Source: Methylomonas sp. (GTDB lineage: Bacteria; Pseudomonadota; Gammaproteobacteria; Methylococcales; Methylomonadaceae). From it: DNA of 42,593 nucleotides. The DNA lies in assembly GCA_026989395.1 (NCBI GenBank), contig JALSJK010000158.1, positions 1 to 42,593 of the forward strand, read 5' to 3'. Of the stretch, positions 18,450-34,751 are shown piece after piece. A program made the position numbers and the translations under genes. Within the stretch, counting starts at the first letter, position 1, and the number at the start of each line of letters is the position of its first letter. The notes beneath the pieces are model-generated. The model had not been told where the DNA came from. It saw nothing but the letters and a program-made list of their open reading frames with translations, and searched no databases.

Positions 18450-18977
18450 ATTGAAATACCCTGAATTATTTATTATTTTTGATTCACCATTTAATAATGA
18501 TGAGATTTTTTCACCTTCTCGAAACTAAGGTTCTAAAAAAGGCAGGAGTATTTAGAATTGACAGGAGAAAGCGAGACTTCTCCGCACACGTTATAACAAA
18601 ACCTTTGAAGAATCAAGGTTGATTCAATAGGCAGAATAAAAATATCATCCGAAAAATATTTCCTTATTAAGAAAATACTAAACTACGTGCACAGAATAAG
18701 TTGGGCGACTGCGTAGTATTCATACAACGAAGAAGAAGATGGATAAATAGACAAGCCAGTTGTTCAAGTTATTTCATGCGCTTTCCTAATCATAACCGAA
18801 TAAAAATGCCTAAAATTTGACAATTATAGTTGCGCCACTGATGATACATACTAAACTAAAATTTATATGTACATTTCCATCACTGCTGAAATACCCGTCA
18901 AAACTGGATAACTGAAGCTTGCCTGATGAAATGTAATGATTTGAAAATAAGCATAATGCTTGCATAGAAACAGCATC
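18450..18977. other. 528-bp intergenic region between divergent EAL and HDOD genes
   Basis: The longest non-coding stretch in the window. It must hold promoters for both divergent genes. I found no convincing sigma-70 pair, riboswitch or tRNA. One small inverted repeat is visible: GGAGAA at 18564-18569 and TTCTCC at 18578-18583. A TTG (18960) extends the HDOD frame upstream, but the ATG at 18978 is the better start. No ORF of note is seen on either strand. Confidence 0.5.
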
Positions 18978-19829
18978 ATGACAAAAACCAAACACAGTGA
19001 AATTACAATATCCGATCTTTTACGAGGCGACATTCAGTTAGCCTCTCCTCCAACACTTTTTTTTGAATTAAAAAAAGTCACTGAAGATCCGACCAAAACT
19101 CTTAATGATGCAGGAGAAATTATTGAGAAAGACCCTGGTTTGACAGCAAGATTACTGAAAATTGTCAATAGTGCTTTTTATGGATTTCCTGCCCAGATTT
19201 CTACAATTTCCCACGCCATCACCCTAATTGGCATTAAAGAAGTAGAAACACTGGTATTAGCTACACTGGTTATTGATAAATTTTCTTCCTTACCTGGCGG
19301 CATGATGTCCATGCGGGATTTTTGGAGCATGAGCCTAAGATGCGCATTAAATGCCAAAGAACTTTGCAATTCTCACTGTCAACCCGAATCGCTTGATGCG
19401 ATCTTTGTCTGTGGCTTGTTACACGATATTGGCAGACTTATTTTTTATCGTCGAATTCCCGCACTAGCAAGGGAAATCGGCTTACAAAAAGCTGCTGGTG
19501 ACAAAGACGAATTACAAATTGAACATAACCTGCTCGGCTTCGATCATTTTCAAACCGGCGCTGAACTGGCAAAGTTATGGAATCTGCCCGCTATCATAGA
19601 AACCACCATTCGCCACCATTGCAAACCGGAACTTGCAGGCCAGTTTCAAACAGAAGCCAATATCGTCAAGCTCGCCTATAGACTCAGCCAACAAAAAATC
19701 TTTGATCCAGATAACTTTATGATTGATAGTAATTTTTCTGCTTTTACCATTTCCGAACTAGAAGCGGTCACAGAAAAGGCCAACACCAAATTTGACGAAA
19801 TCTTCAGTATTTTTTATCCATCCCATTGA
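18978..19829 (+). CDS. HDOD-domain signalling protein
   Basis: A 283-residue protein made almost entirely of one HDOD domain (a relative of HD phosphohydrolases without a complete metal site). Typical segments are LASPPTLFFELKKVTEDP, IIEKDPGLTARLLKIVNSAFYGFP, ISTISHAITLIGI and CGLLHDIGRLIFYRR. Such proteins act as signalling scaffolds in chemotaxis, motility and stress circuits; the partner here is unknown. The ATG at 18978 was preferred over the TTG at 18960. The gene is divergent from the EAL gene, and its last 16 nt overlap the convergent decarboxylase gene. Confidence 0.9.
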   Translation: MTKTKHSEITISDLLRGDIQLASPPTLFFELKKVTEDPTKTLNDAGEIIEKDPGLTARLLKIVNSAFYGFPAQISTISHAITLIGIKEVETLVLATLVIDKFSSLPGGMMSMRDFWSMSLRCALNAKELCNSHCQPESLDAIFVCGLLHDIGRLIFYRRIPALAREIGLQKAAGDKDELQIEHNLLGFDHFQTGAELAKLWNLPAIIETTIRHHCKPELAGQFQTEANIVKLAYRLSQQKIFDPDNFMIDSNFSAFTISELEAVTEKANTKFDEIFSIFYPSH

Positions 19830-25600: not shown

Positions 25601-26140
25601 ATGCTTGCTGCCATTTCAAGTCCGTTACCAACCGTTTTTCCCGCCTTGCAAGGAGAACAGGCTGTACCTGTAGAACAAGACAAAAATTCTACTGAAAAGC
25701 TGCCAGAATTATCTGAACAATCACTACAGCAAGAATTATCTCAAGAAGACCAACAGAAACTGGAATATCTAAAATCCCGAGACCGCGAGGTAAAAACCCA
25801 TGAGCAAGCTCATCTCAGCGCTGCTGGCGGTTTGGCGATGGGCGGCGCCAGTTTCAGCTATGAAAAAGGACCCGATGGAACCAGTTATGCCATCGGCGGT
25901 GAAGTGAATATTGATACATCGGACGTTGCCGGCGATCCAATTGCGACTTTGAAAAAAGCCGAAACAATTCGTAGAGCTGCACTGGCGCCTGCCAATCCAT
26001 CAGCTCAAGATAAAGCAGTTGCCAGTCAGGCCTCGGCCATGGCAAATAAGGCTAGAGCGGAGATTTTTCAAAATAATCAGACTAATTCTGGCATTGCTCA
26101 TAATGAATCCAATTTCAATAAAATTGATTTATCAGTCTGA
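25601..26140 (+). CDS. SprA-related putative metalloprotease family protein
   Basis: A 179-residue protein of the SprA-related family (also labelled putative metalloprotease CJM1_0395 family). The conserved core reads SRDREVKTHEQAHLSAAGG with a HExxH-like HEQAH at 67-71, followed by SFSYEKGPDGTSYAIGGEV and the APANPSAQDKAVASQASAM helix. The first 55 residues are variable and glutamine/glutamate-rich. No signal peptide is obvious. Protease activity is predicted from the motif only. It is divergent from hrpA, with a 102-bp gap, and converges on the possible glycosylase gene 33 bp away. Confidence 0.85.
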   Translation: MLAAISSPLPTVFPALQGEQAVPVEQDKNSTEKLPELSEQSLQQELSQEDQQKLEYLKSRDREVKTHEQAHLSAAGGLAMGGASFSYEKGPDGTSYAIGGEVNIDTSDVAGDPIATLKKAETIRRAALAPANPSAQDKAVASQASAMANKARAEIFQNNQTNSGIAHNESNFNKIDLSV

Positions 26141-29430: not shown

Positions 29431-32400
29431 TCAAGGAAGCATTTCCAATGGCAATGCATAAACAGCGTCACCATCAATTGCCTCACCATCAAGGCTGACC
29501 CATAAATCGACATTATCATGGATCTTTTGGTAATAATTGATTTTATCTTGTAAGCGTTTTAAAAACTCACCCTGCCGTGTTGCAGACCAGGTTTGCCAAT
29601 CTTCTAATGAGACATTCATGATTTCCCCAGTATAGGGTAAATCCTCGATATACTCTCTCATAAAGCCCATTTCAGCTAAATTCCGTGGCTGTCCAGAGGT
29701 TGTACTGGTGGTTGTTCCTAGTTGCTTGGGATCTCGCATCAAAGTTGCCGCTAGACTTTTCAACTCATCAAGAAATTGTTTTGGGGACACTTGCCCTTGT
29801 CTCGCAGTTTCCAGCACTTTCTTTAAAACATCATGTAAATCAGATAATTGATCACGAGTTAACAACGCCCGAACTTCCAAAGCTGGCTTTTCCGGATGTT
29901 TAAAATCTTTATCCAACACCCAGGCACTGAATACATCAGGAATTTTCCCCTGCCCGGTTTTTTGAAGGTATTGTAATTCCAGAGCATGACCGAGTTTCGC
30001 TACTTTCCGTTGCAACTCAATTAGTCGTGGGTTGTGCTGTTCTGGTTCAAACGGAACTTTTTTCCCGCCGTTTATTGTTGACACTTGGTAAGTGATTTGT
30101 TTAGCCAACTGTTCTATTACACTGCCAAACTCTTCCAAACTGGTTGTTGGAACGCCATAATAAAAGCTACCAATACCTGGATAATGCGAAACTGTACGAT
30201 ACTGTCTTTCCGCCAGCTTGTGATCTGCCTGGGGATCAGGTGTTAAAATATGCATGACAAATATCGCCGCATTATTTTCTTGCGCCAATCGTTTCAACCG
30301 GCTTGCAGTTAAACCTGTTGAGGCCAGCGGGTCGCCAGCTTCTCTAGCCCCTGCATCAGTAATCAAAATAATATAGCGCGCCGCAAATGGCGACCAGTCG
30401 AGATCTTTCAATGCTTTTGAAATACCCGCATAACTATCTTCTATAAAGCCTCTGCTGGAAATTTCAGCGGCTTTTAAACCATTAACAGCCGCCATAAAGG
30501 TTTGTGGGTTTTCACCCTGCTTTAAACTGACATATTGCCGGGTTAAATATTCAATTCCTGGAACGACATCAGTATTATCCCTGAAAGCAATTAACCCAAA
30601 GTTAACCTGACCGATTAAATCTGCTTTTTCCAAAGTCCCATAAATTTTTGCTACCGCTTCCCGGGTTCGATCAATAAAAGGCTGCATCGAAAATGTAGAA
30701 TCTATGACGAAGGTTATACCAGCCTTGTAACTATTGCTTGGAACACTAATAGCCTCATGGTTGCTAATATTTGAATCGCCCACATTTTTTGCAATTTTCT
30801 TAATTGGTTTTTCTTTGCGCGCAACGCTGGAAACTTTTAATAAACGGGCTACTTCATTATTCAGATAAATTTGTTCATGATCCTGAATTGGCAACAGATA
30901 AAAATTCCTATTAAAATCTATGTGTTTGTCAGGTTGAATTGCAACGACAGGTGAATCTTTGCCAACTTTCCCTTGTGTTGCCTCTTTATGGAGTTTTTTA
31001 TAAGTTTCAATATCATAATTTTCTGCGAGTTTAATTAAAGATGATTTATCTTTAAACAACATCACCCTGTCTTGTTTTCCAGGGTCTTTAAAACTAAGCG
31101 TTAGACCTTGGTTCCAATCTTGTACACTATCCGTGGTTATCCATCCAGCCAAATTACCTTTGCGCCCAAGCCCAACCTGAACCCATTCGCGTCCAGAATC
31201 ATCTTTTAGTCTCAAATAAACATAATAAACAGAAAAAGCGGGGAGTGGGATAGCATCAAATGACGTAACCTTAGGTTGCTGATAAAGTATGGCCCCTGGC
31301 TGGGTAAGTACTTTTTGGAACAAACTTTTTTTGCCCGGCATCAACAAGGGCTTTAATGGTCCGGATGACTGACTTGGGTTACTTGCCTCCTCAAAGGAAA
31401 GCACAGCTTGATCTGACTGTTCAATTGCTTTTGCCTGGGGTAGCGATTCATTAGTATTAGCCATCAAATCTTTTTTGCTGGCTTTTTCCAGAATATTATC
31501 TGCTGGACTGAATAAAAACATAATAAACAGCAACAACATAATGACACCAAACCCCCAGAAATAACCGCTTGCTGTCACATAATCGGGTTTGGTTTCTTGC
31601 TCGGCTGTCTCTTCATTCTGGGCATTCTGCTTGTCGTATGTTAATCGATGGTAGAACTTTTCAATGGTGGTAGCAGAGCCTAATTCATCTATTCCAGCTT
31701 CATCGGTTTTTTTTAATGAAATCCTTTCCAAAACAGGAGCATCCTTAATGACTTTTTCTACAATCTTTTTGGTCACTACCGGTTTTTTTTCTCCTGCTAG
31801 TTTTTTTAATGACAAAGAGCAAAGTATATTAATTAATGCCGGAATACCTTTAGAATGACTAACTATTTTTTCTATGGCTTCAGGTTTAAACTGGCTTTCA
31901 ATTTTTTGTCCGATTGTTTGGAGCCGCTTATCGATGTAATACCTAACTTCTTGTTCAGATAATTTTTGTAATTGATACGAACTAATTTTTAACTCTGCAT
32001 CGGCAGGCAACTGTATTTTCAAAACTCGCGACTTTAAGTTTGATTCTCCAGTCAGAATAATCTGTAACGAACCACGGTCGGGTAATGGAGCAACTGAAAG
32101 CATCAACAGTTTTTTTAAAATTTCATCTGATAATTGATCTGCATCATCAATCACCAGCGCCACTCTTGTATGAATATTTCCTGGCTGATTCAAATAGCGA
32201 TCTAAAGCCAGTATGTTTTCGAAGAAATCCATATCCTCGGTATCAATCTCCAAAAAATGGCAAAGCTGATTTACAATTTCTGAAAAGCTTTTATGTATAA
32301 CATCATTATTCCCAAGCGAATAAAATTTCACTTTTTTATCCAGATTGTGCAGCAGGGATTTCAGAAAAAAGCTCTTCCCCATACCGGGTTCACCGCTAAT

Positions 32401-32541
32401 CAAAACAGCACCTTCACCGCAACTGACATCAGCAAACACTTGTTGACAAACAGAGTCCAAACTTGCAGAAATATAAAAATAATCAAGTTCCAGTTCCGGA
32501 CCGAAGGGATCTTGAATACGATCTGATTGTGATGAAGACAT
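29431..32541 (-). CDS. Membrane protein: ExeA-like AAA+ ATPase fused to PpkA-like SH3/vWA region
   Basis: A single intact 1036-residue frame. Residues 20-270 are an ExeA/MshM-type AAA+ ATPase with Walker A GEPGMGKS at 50-57 and Walker B VALVIDDADQ at 127-136. A charged linker leads to one membrane span at about 327-346. The segment 400-500 (LLMPGKKSLFQKVL, REWVQVG, LAGWITTDSVQDW) is SH3-like. Residues 608-830 form a von Willebrand A domain with MIDAS DSTFS at 614-618 and ITDAGARE at 727-734. The SH3-vWA part looks, from memory, like the periplasmic half of the type VI secretion kinase PpkA, but the kinase domain is absent and the AAA+ module takes its place. A helical tail of about 200 residues follows. 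N-in topology would put vWA in the periplasm. It is divergent from an ABC transporter. Confidence 0.85.
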   Translation of the reverse strand: MSSSQSDRIQDPFGPELELDYFYISASLDSVCQQVFADVSCGEGAVLISGEPGMGKSFFLKSLLHNLDKKVKFYSLGNNDVIHKSFSEIVNQLCHFLEIDTEDMDFFENILALDRYLNQPGNIHTRVALVIDDADQLSDEILKKLLMLSVAPLPDRGSLQIILTGESNLKSRVLKIQLPADAELKISSYQLQKLSEQEVRYYIDKRLQTIGQKIESQFKPEAIEKIVSHSKGIPALINILCSLSLKKLAGEKKPVVTKKIVEKVIKDAPVLERISLKKTDEAGIDELGSATTIEKFYHRLTYDKQNAQNEETAEQETKPDYVTASGYFWGFGVIMLLLFIMFLFSPADNILEKASKKDLMANTNESLPQAKAIEQSDQAVLSFEEASNPSQSSGPLKPLLMPGKKSLFQKVLTQPGAILYQQPKVTSFDAIPLPAFSVYYVYLRLKDDSGREWVQVGLGRKGNLAGWITTDSVQDWNQGLTLSFKDPGKQDRVMLFKDKSSLIKLAENYDIETYKKLHKEATQGKVGKDSPVVAIQPDKHIDFNRNFYLLPIQDHEQIYLNNEVARLLKVSSVARKEKPIKKIAKNVGDSNISNHEAISVPSNSYKAGITFVIDSTFSMQPFIDRTREAVAKIYGTLEKADLIGQVNFGLIAFRDNTDVVPGIEYLTRQYVSLKQGENPQTFMAAVNGLKAAEISSRGFIEDSYAGISKALKDLDWSPFAARYIILITDAGAREAGDPLASTGLTASRLKRLAQENNAAIFVMHILTPDPQADHKLAERQYRTVSHYPGIGSFYYGVPTTSLEEFGSVIEQLAKQITYQVSTINGGKKVPFEPEQHNPRLIELQRKVAKLGHALELQYLQKTGQGKIPDVFSAWVLDKDFKHPEKPALEVRALLTRDQLSDLHDVLKKVLETARQGQVSPKQFLDELKSLAATLMRDPKQLGTTTSTTSGQPRNLAEMGFMREYIEDLPYTGEIMNVSLEDWQTWSATRQGEFLKRLQDKINYYQKIHDNVDLWVSLDGEAIDGDAVYALPLEMLP

Positions 32542-32801
32542 TCTAAAAAATTACCTTATTACTAAAAAAATTGTAAAGCTTTAATCAATTGCACAAACAA
32601 AAAGTTTATAATAGAGTGGTTTTATGCGGACATATTTTCAACCAACTATATTGCAATCCATCCCATCCTTTTAAAATGGCCCGGGTATTATAACCTACTA
32701 AATTCGTTCATTTTTCAAAACCTGAAATCTTGGCTACTTTACCCTTTGTATTTGATCTTTTTGCTCAATAAACAACCAAACAACCTATTTCTTTTAACAG
32801 C

Positions 32802-33545
32802 ATGAAAACGCATTCCAACGGTCAACCATTGCTTCTTTACAAGCTCTTTAAAGTCAGCCGAAGCAGGGGGTTAGAAAACGCAAGGTTTAATATGGTCATC
32901 CACAATCTCCGCATTCATCAAGGCGATAAAATTGCATTTATTGGCGAAAGTGGCTGTGGCAAATCAACATTGCTTGATATGCTGGCATTTATTGCCCAAC
33001 CCAGTTACTCTGAAATTTTTAATTTTTATTTACAACACCAAAGCTCGATTAATATTGCTGTTGAATGGCAAAGAAAACACCTGGATCCATTAAGCCAGCT
33101 CAGGAAACGCTATATTGGATATGTAATGCAAACTGGTGGGTTGTTACCCTATCTTACAGTCAAGGAAAATATTTTATTGTCGCGAGAAATTCTCGATTTA
33201 CCGCTTGAAGACGAAATTGTTTTTCAATTAATCAATGATTTGAAGCTGGAAAGACATCTGAAAAAATCGCCTGCGGTTCTTTCGATTGGCGAGCGTCAAC
33301 GCGTTGCTATAGCCCGCGCACTTTCTCATAAACCCAAAATTGTCATTGCGGACGAACCAACTGCTTCGTTAGACCCCTACTCAGCCAAAGTTGTCATGGA
33401 GCTTTTTATTAATCTGGCAGAACAATTCAATATCACATTAATCATTGCCAGCCATGATTGGCAACCCCTTAAAAGTTTTGGCTTACACCGTTATTATCTC
33501 CATACCAGCTATTCTGAAAACCTAACTGAAACCAGCATTATTTAA
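32802..33545 (+). CDS. ABC transporter ATP-binding protein (LolD/MacB or TagT-like)
   Basis: A 247-residue nucleotide-binding subunit. Walker A GESGCGKST is at 48-56, the Q-loop glutamine at 110 (GYVMQTGG), the signature LSIGE at 160-164, Walker B IVIADEP at 180-186, and the switch histidine at 218 (IIASHD); all are intact, so it should hydrolyse ATP. The stretch between Walker A and the Q-loop is longer than in LolD. It precedes the FtsX-type permease by 9 nt. Placement beside a PpkA-like vWA gene suggests the TagT role of type VI threonine-phosphorylation clusters; this is inference from context. A generic MacB/LolD transporter is the alternative. Confidence 0.88.
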   Translation: MKTHSNGQPLLLYKLFKVSRSRGLENARFNMVIHNLRIHQGDKIAFIGESGCGKSTLLDMLAFIAQPSYSEIFNFYLQHQSSINIAVEWQRKHLDPLSQLRKRYIGYVMQTGGLLPYLTVKENILLSREILDLPLEDEIVFQLINDLKLERHLKKSPAVLSIGERQRVAIARALSHKPKIVIADEPTASLDPYSAKVVMELFINLAEQFNITLIIASHDWQPLKSFGLHRYYLHTSYSENLTETSII

Positions 33546-33554
33546 GCTTTCTGT

Positions 33555-34751
33555 ATGTTTAAAATCTTTAAACTTGCCGCTCGAGACTATTTTTACGAAT
33601 GGCAAATATCAATCTGTCATGTTTTAGCATTAGCATCAATCCTCGCTCCCTTGATGATCTTATTTGGCTTAAAATTTGGTATTATTGGCAAAATGGTAAG
33701 TCGACTTGTTGAAGAACCACTCAACCGGGAATTACGACCTGTTAGTAGTAAACATATTGAACCTGATTGGTTTAAAGAAATTAAAAGTCGTTCTGATGTA
33801 TCTTTTATCATACCTTTAAAGAGGAACCTGGCGGCCAATATTCAGTTGAAGAGCAAAACTGCTAACAAAATATTAAATGTCGAGCTGATCCCAACCGCGG
33901 AAAATGATCCTTTACTTCCTGAAATAAATCGTGCGCCCAAACAAATTGACGAAATCATTTTATCGAAAAGCGCAGCTAATAAATTATCAGTAAAAGCGGG
34001 CGATCGTATAGATGGCAGCATATCAAGAAAGTACCATAATAAAACCCAAAGAGTTCATATCCCACTACGGGTACTCGCTGTTGCTGAAAGTCAATCATTT
34101 AACCGGGATGGTGCTTTTTGTTCTCTAACCTTAGTTGAAGCTTTAGAAAATTTTCGTGATGGTCATGCTGTACCAGAACTTGGTTGGTCAGGAAAACCAA
34201 ATAAATTACAAAACTACTACACAGGATTCAGATTATTTGCTAAAACAATCAACGATGTTGAGCCTCTAAAACAATGGTTAAACGAACAGGGAATTGATGT
34301 TAGAACCCGAGCTCATGAAATTGCTGTCGTCAACAGACTGGATCAAAATTTGACTACAGTTTACTGGGTCGTGGCATTCACCAGCATCATTGGCTATATT
34401 CTATCCCTTGGCGCCAATCTTTGGGCCAATGTTGACCGCAAATACAAAGAACTCTGTATATTACGTTTGACTGGCTTTCGAACCAGCGAAATTATTTGCT
34501 TTCCAATTATTCAGGCAATGATTACCGCTGGTCTTGGCTGGTTTTTAGCCATTGTAATCTTCCAGTTTGTAGCATTCACAATGACCCACTTTATTTCTGA
34601 ATTTACAGATACTACTGACATTTGCCGTTTGTTACCAAGTCACTACTTTCTGGCATTGACCATCACCACTTTAGCAGCATTTTGTGCCGCATTATTAGCT
34701 GGATTTAGAACCATTAAAGGTGAACCAACTGATGGGCTTAGGGAATTGTAA
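33555..34751 (+). CDS. ABC transporter permease, FtsX/MacB type (TagS-like)
   Basis: A 398-residue permease with one N-terminal span (about 20-45), a large periplasmic segment (about 46-270), and three C-terminal spans (about 271-296, 315-345, 362-386), the arrangement of FtsX/MacB/LolC proteins. It ends in GEPTDGLREL, matching the usual C-terminal motif. Such permeases work as mechanotransmitters rather than as conventional pumps. It forms a pair with the ATPase gene just upstream. No MacA-type periplasmic adaptor or substrate lipoprotein gene is adjacent, which argues for a signalling or lipoprotein role over drug export. Confidence 0.88.
   Translation: MFKIFKLAARDYFYEWQISICHVLALASILAPLMILFGLKFGIIGKMVSRLVEEPLNRELRPVSSKHIEPDWFKEIKSRSDVSFIIPLKRNLAANIQLKSKTANKILNVELIPTAENDPLLPEINRAPKQIDEIILSKSAANKLSVKAGDRIDGSISRKYHNKTQRVHIPLRVLAVAESQSFNRDGAFCSLTLVEALENFRDGHAVPELGWSGKPNKLQNYYTGFRLFAKTINDVEPLKQWLNEQGIDVRTRAHEIAVVNRLDQNLTTVYWVVAFTSIIGYILSLGANLWANVDRKYKELCILRLTGFRTSEIICFPIIQAMITAGLGWFLAIVIFQFVAFTMTHFISEFTDTTDICRLLPSHYFLALTITTLAAFCAALLAGFRTIKGEPTDGLREL

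Follow-up and report, generated by a model that had tools for sequence, protein, structure and literature searches.

Three genes in the 42,593-nucleotide stretch of Methylomonas sp. DNA analysed here (the window) are co-inherited as a unit that is independent of the type VI secretion system (T6SS). We see an about even chance that the trio belongs to the TagS-TagT/PpkA-vWA family as a stand-alone member, in which a type VII ABC pair works with a periplasmic vWA protein of its own and the most probable role is sensing envelope damage or responding to it. That judgement is on the explanation as a whole, proposed mechanism included; the homology, co-inheritance, intact motifs, predicted fold and lack of T6SS and SrfB matches are observations described below. 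The layout of the original prediction, with a 260-bp gap between divergent genes, was borne out by open reading frames encoding AAA_22-TM-vWA, ABC and FtsX domains (Table 1).

Table 1. Coordinates of the trio and its parts within the window.
Feature	Position	Strand	Basis
AAA_22-TM-periplasmic vWA protein, 1036 aa	29431..32541	-	ORF list, Pfam, hydropathy
Cytoplasmic AAA domain, residues ~1-290	31672..32541	-	Pfam, AAA tree, residue comparison
Single predicted TM helix, residues 326-344	31510..31566	-	Hydropathy
Periplasmic part of vWA protein, residues 381-1036	29434..31401	-	Homology, motifs, model
Divergent intergenic region, 260 bp	32542..32801	.	ORF starts, alignment
TagT-type ABC ATPase, 247 aa	32802..33545	+	Pfam, ABC tree, motifs
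TagS-type FtsX permease, 398 aa	33555..34751	+	Pfam, tree, predicted fold

A Pseudomonas T6SS locus (L159) encodes a kinase-TM-vWA PpkA carrying a Pkinase domain, an ABC ATPase, a permease, an FGE-domain protein (TagR-like), a PP2C phosphatase, IcmF and a Gly-zipper protein (TagQ-like). Some of these Tag names are our presumed assignments to the L159 domains, and the roles of the Tag proteins are taken to be those given in excerpts of PMC6657622. The periplasmic half of the window vWA protein shares 34% identity with the C-terminal half of the L159 PpkA over 649 aa, the ATPase 41% with TagT over 236 aa and the permease 36% with TagS over 394 aa, all three matches being near full length. These identities, together with placement on the same side of the ABC tree, support the proposed TagT/TagS kinship of the ABC pair. 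The description of the vWA gene as PpkA-like is right for the periplasmic half and wrong for the cytoplasmic one, where Pfam finds AAA_22 in place of a kinase domain.

The T6SS core models for TssK (PF05936) and VipB (PF05943) had no match in this 98%-complete genome, so a full T6SS elsewhere that might use these proteins, a possibility raised at the outset against the idea of a self-contained unit, was not seen. VipB was found under five of 39 genome handles, equal to four of 37 distinct genomes, and 33 of the 37 gave no VipB match. SrfB had no match in this genome or in any of the 37 genomes searched, a weaker zero than that for the T6SS in that no control genome matched; the same Pfam model hits the L033 protein (E 0). 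As foreseen for T6SS, TagQ and TagR genes in the vicinity, nothing in the window matched the T6SS, kinase, FGE or TagQ-like references, nor those for Srf, and a whole-genome TagR query returned a single partial match of 18 bits.

Trees of the ABC ATPase, permease and vWA protein each place the T6SS rows in one clade and the window, L045, L046 and L032 in another (97-98 SH-aLRT). The latter clade groups with the stand-alone rows (support 100 in the vWA tree). On the other side of the ABC tree (support 99) lie six ABCs of the genome's own Lol, Mac, FtsE, Ybb and Dev-like systems; every outgroup row, ABC or permease, was taken from the window's genome and named from gene order and size. The outgroup of the permease tree does not fall cleanly on one side (an FtsX-like row has a branch of 9.2), and the separation is read from the ABC tree, for which the program warns of long branches meeting. 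All are "quick" trees whose only support measure is SH-aLRT, and the placement of the long rows L160 and L044 is unsure.

Relatives confirmed by a GTDB scan numbered 313, and among the best 80 of these loci both ABC genes adjoin the vWA gene in 73: in 71 the ATPase and permease lie downstream on the same strand, and in two they are divergent. Contig ends cut five of the best 80 (L063, L070, L073, L085, L101), and the ABC pair is missing at two, L081 (from the same genome as L033) and L124. These two are Srf loci that keep the vWA gene alone, so the vWA protein can exist without the ABC pair. In the order sample (151 genomes), relatives of the vWA half occur in 14 others, 13 of which have the ABC pair. 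In the class sample (369 genomes), the vWA half was found in 26 at E <= 1e-20, and the same 26 have a strong permease match (best match in each >300 bits, versus weak matches of 42-45 bits in five further genomes); permease profile A3 was built from vWA-linked permeases only, and divergent unlinked permeases may escape it. Linkage holds in 25 of 27 class loci; L195 is cut by a contig end, and at L197 the ABC and permease homologues lie farther off, beyond the 4-kb limit. For class positives G000 and G003 the loci are the window and L041, and the samples overlap: L047 and L048 are G002 and G010 of the order sample, while L081 and L123 are apparently the G057 and G095 loci. Within the genus Pseudomonas, full PpkA was matched in 60 of 119 genomes at E <= 1e-60, these matches being a mix of kinase-vWA, vWA-only and kinase-only proteins. 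The clustering of the ABC pair with LolDC/MacB, unlinked to vWA genes, that would have spoken against the original prediction was thus not found: the ATPase stands apart from LolD and MacB in the ABC tree, and 73 of the best 80 loci are linked. Co-occurrence of the three genes stood up; conservation of their divergent order did not, being confined to the window, L045 and L046, with a codirectional operon elsewhere.

The trio's neighbours in the window are IspG, ThiC, MinC and MinD (named from reading the ORFs). In a second Methylomonas genome, the MAG of L045, the whole block is preserved, from IspG through the AAA-vWA gene divergent from the ABC-permease pair to ThiC and MinCD, and the trio is 83-90% identical to that of the window. 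This conserved block and the linked relatives of all three genes in many genomes make the arrangement more than chance. Alignment of the intergenic region revealed a TATAAT-containing stretch common to the window, L045 and L046; a promoter scan of the region found sites no more numerous than in shuffles.

The relatives occur in five gene contexts: (i) the T6SS, with a kinase-bearing PpkA; (ii) Srf loci, with SrfB, SrfC, a TM protein, vWA, ABC, permease and often an FGE protein; (iii) a Tubulin_2-like protein (L042, L043, L044 and L160) with vWA, ABC, permease and FGE; (iv) a stand-alone operon of a TM protein of ~200-260 aa with a Sel1-like C-terminal part, vWA, ABC and permease; and (v) loci with an AAA domain, fused in G002 and G010 to the TM/Sel1-like gene of the same operon, and in the window, L045 and L046 to the vWA protein, with the ABC pair divergent. 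The majority of the 26 positive class genomes show form iv, and no T6SS gene was recognised next to the operon; the T6SS reference set for neighbourhoods, drawn from two genomes, may overlook distant T6SS genes at some loci. A cytoplasmic output domain is lacking in most relatives. In forms ii and iv the vWA protein is usually free and has a signal-like N-terminal segment of its own, so that, judging by the tree, PpkA and the window clade seem to have gained their link to a cytoplasmic ATP-binding domain through two separate fusions. The close kin within T6SS and Srf loci might suggest that the trio is a functionless leftover of such a regulatory cluster; we regard this as highly improbable given the intact catalytic motifs, the conservation in the second Methylomonas genome, and a stand-alone form that clusters separately from the T6SS and Srf forms and is present in most positive class genomes.

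In the 1036-aa protein, Pfam matches AAA_22 at residues 43-172 (E 6.5e-15) and, weakly, vWA at residues 609-771, and hydropathy indicates one TM helix between them. The XrtA-associated ATPase model TIGR03015 was rejected as an identity (score 109.1 versus a curated cut-off of 324.5). The AAA domain has an intact Walker A, a Walker B reading IDDA versus DEA in most AAA_22 proteins, and Ala in place of the conserved GxP-Arg, the Arg being lost across the window clade. Walker B is DD or DN in all five module AAAs versus DE in 13 of 15 other AAA_22 proteins. Module AAA domains form one clade (98 SH-aLRT), confined to the window clade and one sister lineage and missing in most relatives. The AAA domain is a Methylococcales addition, the core of the module being vWA, ABC and permease. 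The trio had been predicted to act as a relay in which the periplasmic vWA part senses, the ABC complex transmits force and the AAA+ domain is the output. The AAA-vWA fusion in three loci and the AAA-Sel1-like membrane gene fusion in the sister lineage, all within that single AAA clade, are consistent with such a role, but most linked loci lack an AAA domain altogether and the Walker B and Arg changes also speak against it, so that we consider this relay quite unlikely. What survives is a co-inherited trio; an "AAA+ output" as a part of its machinery is not supported.

The periplasmic part has a beta-rich N-terminal region, an integrin-I-like vWA domain and a helical C-terminal part ending in PLEMLP. 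The MIDAS of the window vWA domain is intact (DSTFS, TDA), and the motif is retained in most module vWA rows. Its model (pLDDT 79.2) is matched by integrin I domains over residues 223-475 (Z 18.3, rmsd 2.7, 190 residues), a comparison essentially of the vWA domain that barely covers the flanking parts. A PDB sequence search gave weak matches for both the vWA protein and the permease.

Pfam identifies ABC_tran in the ATPase (E 1.7e-26) and FtsX in the permease (E 9.4e-8). The catalytic motifs of the ATPase are intact, with Q-loop QTGG and Walker B ADEPTA; a QxGG Q-loop is found in 60 of 60 module ABCs versus none of six other ABCs. Hydropathy of the permease indicates four TMs, the first two separated by a large loop. 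Its model (pLDDT 85.7) has a predicted type VII ABC fold, with four TMs and a periplasmic domain after TM1 as expected for this superfamily. The best structural match is LolE (Z 21.7, rmsd 7.1, 371 residues), followed from Z 21.7 downward by LolC, YtrEF, MacB and FtsX. With LolE/LolC and MacB all ranking high, the predicted fold alone is unable to separate a mechanotransmitter, a lipoprotein extractor and an efflux pump. An identity as MacAB-TolC was rejected: ATPase and permease are separate ORFs, and the neighbours are IspG, ThiC and the Min genes. Another locus of the genome, L205, holds a LolC/LolD-like pair, so named on the basis of gene order and size.

The closeness of the model to LolE and LolC over its whole length raises the alternative that a special lipoprotein or lipid is extracted from the inner membrane by the permease and handed to the vWA protein, much as LolA receives its cargo from LolCDE. 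Such a carrier role would suit the relatives, where the vWA protein is usually free and starts with a signal-like segment of its own and a cytoplasmic output domain is mostly missing. The NCBIfam scores nevertheless fall far below cut-off for both LolD (130 versus 307.75) and LolCE (18 versus 362.45), and we rejected these identities for the ATPase and the permease; moreover, the module stands apart from the genome's own LolD-like protein in the ABC tree, and a search not specific to lipoproteins recognised no lipoprotein gene beside the stand-alone type. On balance, we find Lol-like extraction unlikely.

For the TagS-TagT/PpkA-vWA reading, we propose that ATP hydrolysis by the cytoplasmic ATPase would move the periplasmic domain of the permease, which would act on the vWA protein rather than pump a small molecule, and that the vWA domain may bind an envelope ligand in a metal-dependent manner. 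In the window clade, the vWA protein would be anchored through its fusion to the AAA domain, sited where PpkA carries its kinase and most likely an ATP-binding on/off switch, not a strong motor. Sensing or answering envelope damage is the likeliest job by analogy with TagQRST-PpkA, through which P. aeruginosa answers outer-membrane damage (excerpts of PMC11881912); deletion of tagS or tagT reduced baseplate foci without abolishing them (excerpts of PMC6657622). The analogy may not carry over to the stand-alone relatives because these have no TagR-like neighbours or clear output domain. Because the module is retained in bacteria without a T6SS, its role at the cell envelope is probably more general. 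Tentatively, and as a possibility that we put below an even chance, TagS-TagT-vWA could be an envelope-damage module of general use rather than a T6SS accessory, its cytoplasmic partner being exchangeable: a kinase in the T6SS, an AAA switch in Methylococcales, SrfB/SrfC or a tubulin-like protein in other loci, and no partner at all in the minimal four-gene form that many Gammaproteobacteria carry. The distribution suggests that one envelope module is common to the T6SS, Srf and tubulin-like systems, and the small stand-alone operon offers a reduced system for testing ABC-vWA coupling without a T6SS, in bacteria not known as pathogens.

Among known systems, proteins of the ExeA/GspA and DamX type combine AAA_22, one TM and a periplasmic C-terminal part; the window protein has a vWA part where they have a peptidoglycan-binding or SPOR domain. 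LolCDE, MacB, FtsEX and YtrEF, all type VII ABC systems, resemble the module in permease fold and topology, but the module forms a separate ABC-tree clade and has a vWA protein as partner in place of LolA, MacA/TolC or EnvC. With the TagQRST-PpkA pathway of the T6SS the window shares the periplasmic vWA half of PpkA, the TagT ATPase and the TagS permease in adjacent genes; it differs in its divergent order and in having AAA in place of the kinase, and PppA, TagQ, TagR, Fha and the T6SS were not found. The srfABC-linked TagST/vWA loci of Pseudomonas, Alphaproteobacteria and some Methylococcales likewise keep vWA, ABC and permease together, with a kinase-free vWA in the loci examined, but carry alongside SrfB, SrfC and often an FGE (TagR-like) protein, none of which the window has. 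TagST/PpkA homologues without a T6SS were reported beside srfBC in host-associated Deltaproteobacteria in 2013 (PMC3608642), and excerpts of PMC2875224 describe vWA proteins accompanying FtsZl1 tubulin-like genes. The window resembles such tubulin-like loci through the vWA-ABC-permease sets of context iii, although it has no tubulin-like gene itself. Full-text searches of open-licence papers brought up none that we recognised as describing a TagST-vWA operon standing alone or a fusion of AAA to vWA.

In most of the Srf loci examined (L086-L122 and L034-L041 from other genomes), the vWA-ABC-permease set follows the SrfB and SrfC genes, and an FGE-domain, TagR-like protein is a frequent companion of the set. 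The SrfB/SrfC "virulence factor" operon may belong, together with the TagST-type module, to an envelope system. Two further Srf loci, L081 and L124, retain the vWA gene without a TagST-type ABC pair inside 4 kb. The set also adjoins Tubulin_2-like genes in four loci (L042, L043, L044 and L160).

The gene upstream of vWA in L049-L080 codes for a short TM protein whose C-terminal part is Sel1-like; the protein is barely detected by Pfam and is kept across the stand-alone operons. The Walker B glutamate is substituted in the module AAA domains; Walker B DD also occurs outside the module, in two AAA_22 proteins (L016 and L026).

Features of the window and their coordinates
Feature	Position	Remark
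HDOD-domain protein	18960-19829	
SprA-related (PF12118) family protein	25601-26140	adjoins HrpA
AAA domain	31672-32541	

The HDOD-domain protein resembles an HDOD gene near L159, a Pseudomonas T6SS locus with PpkA.
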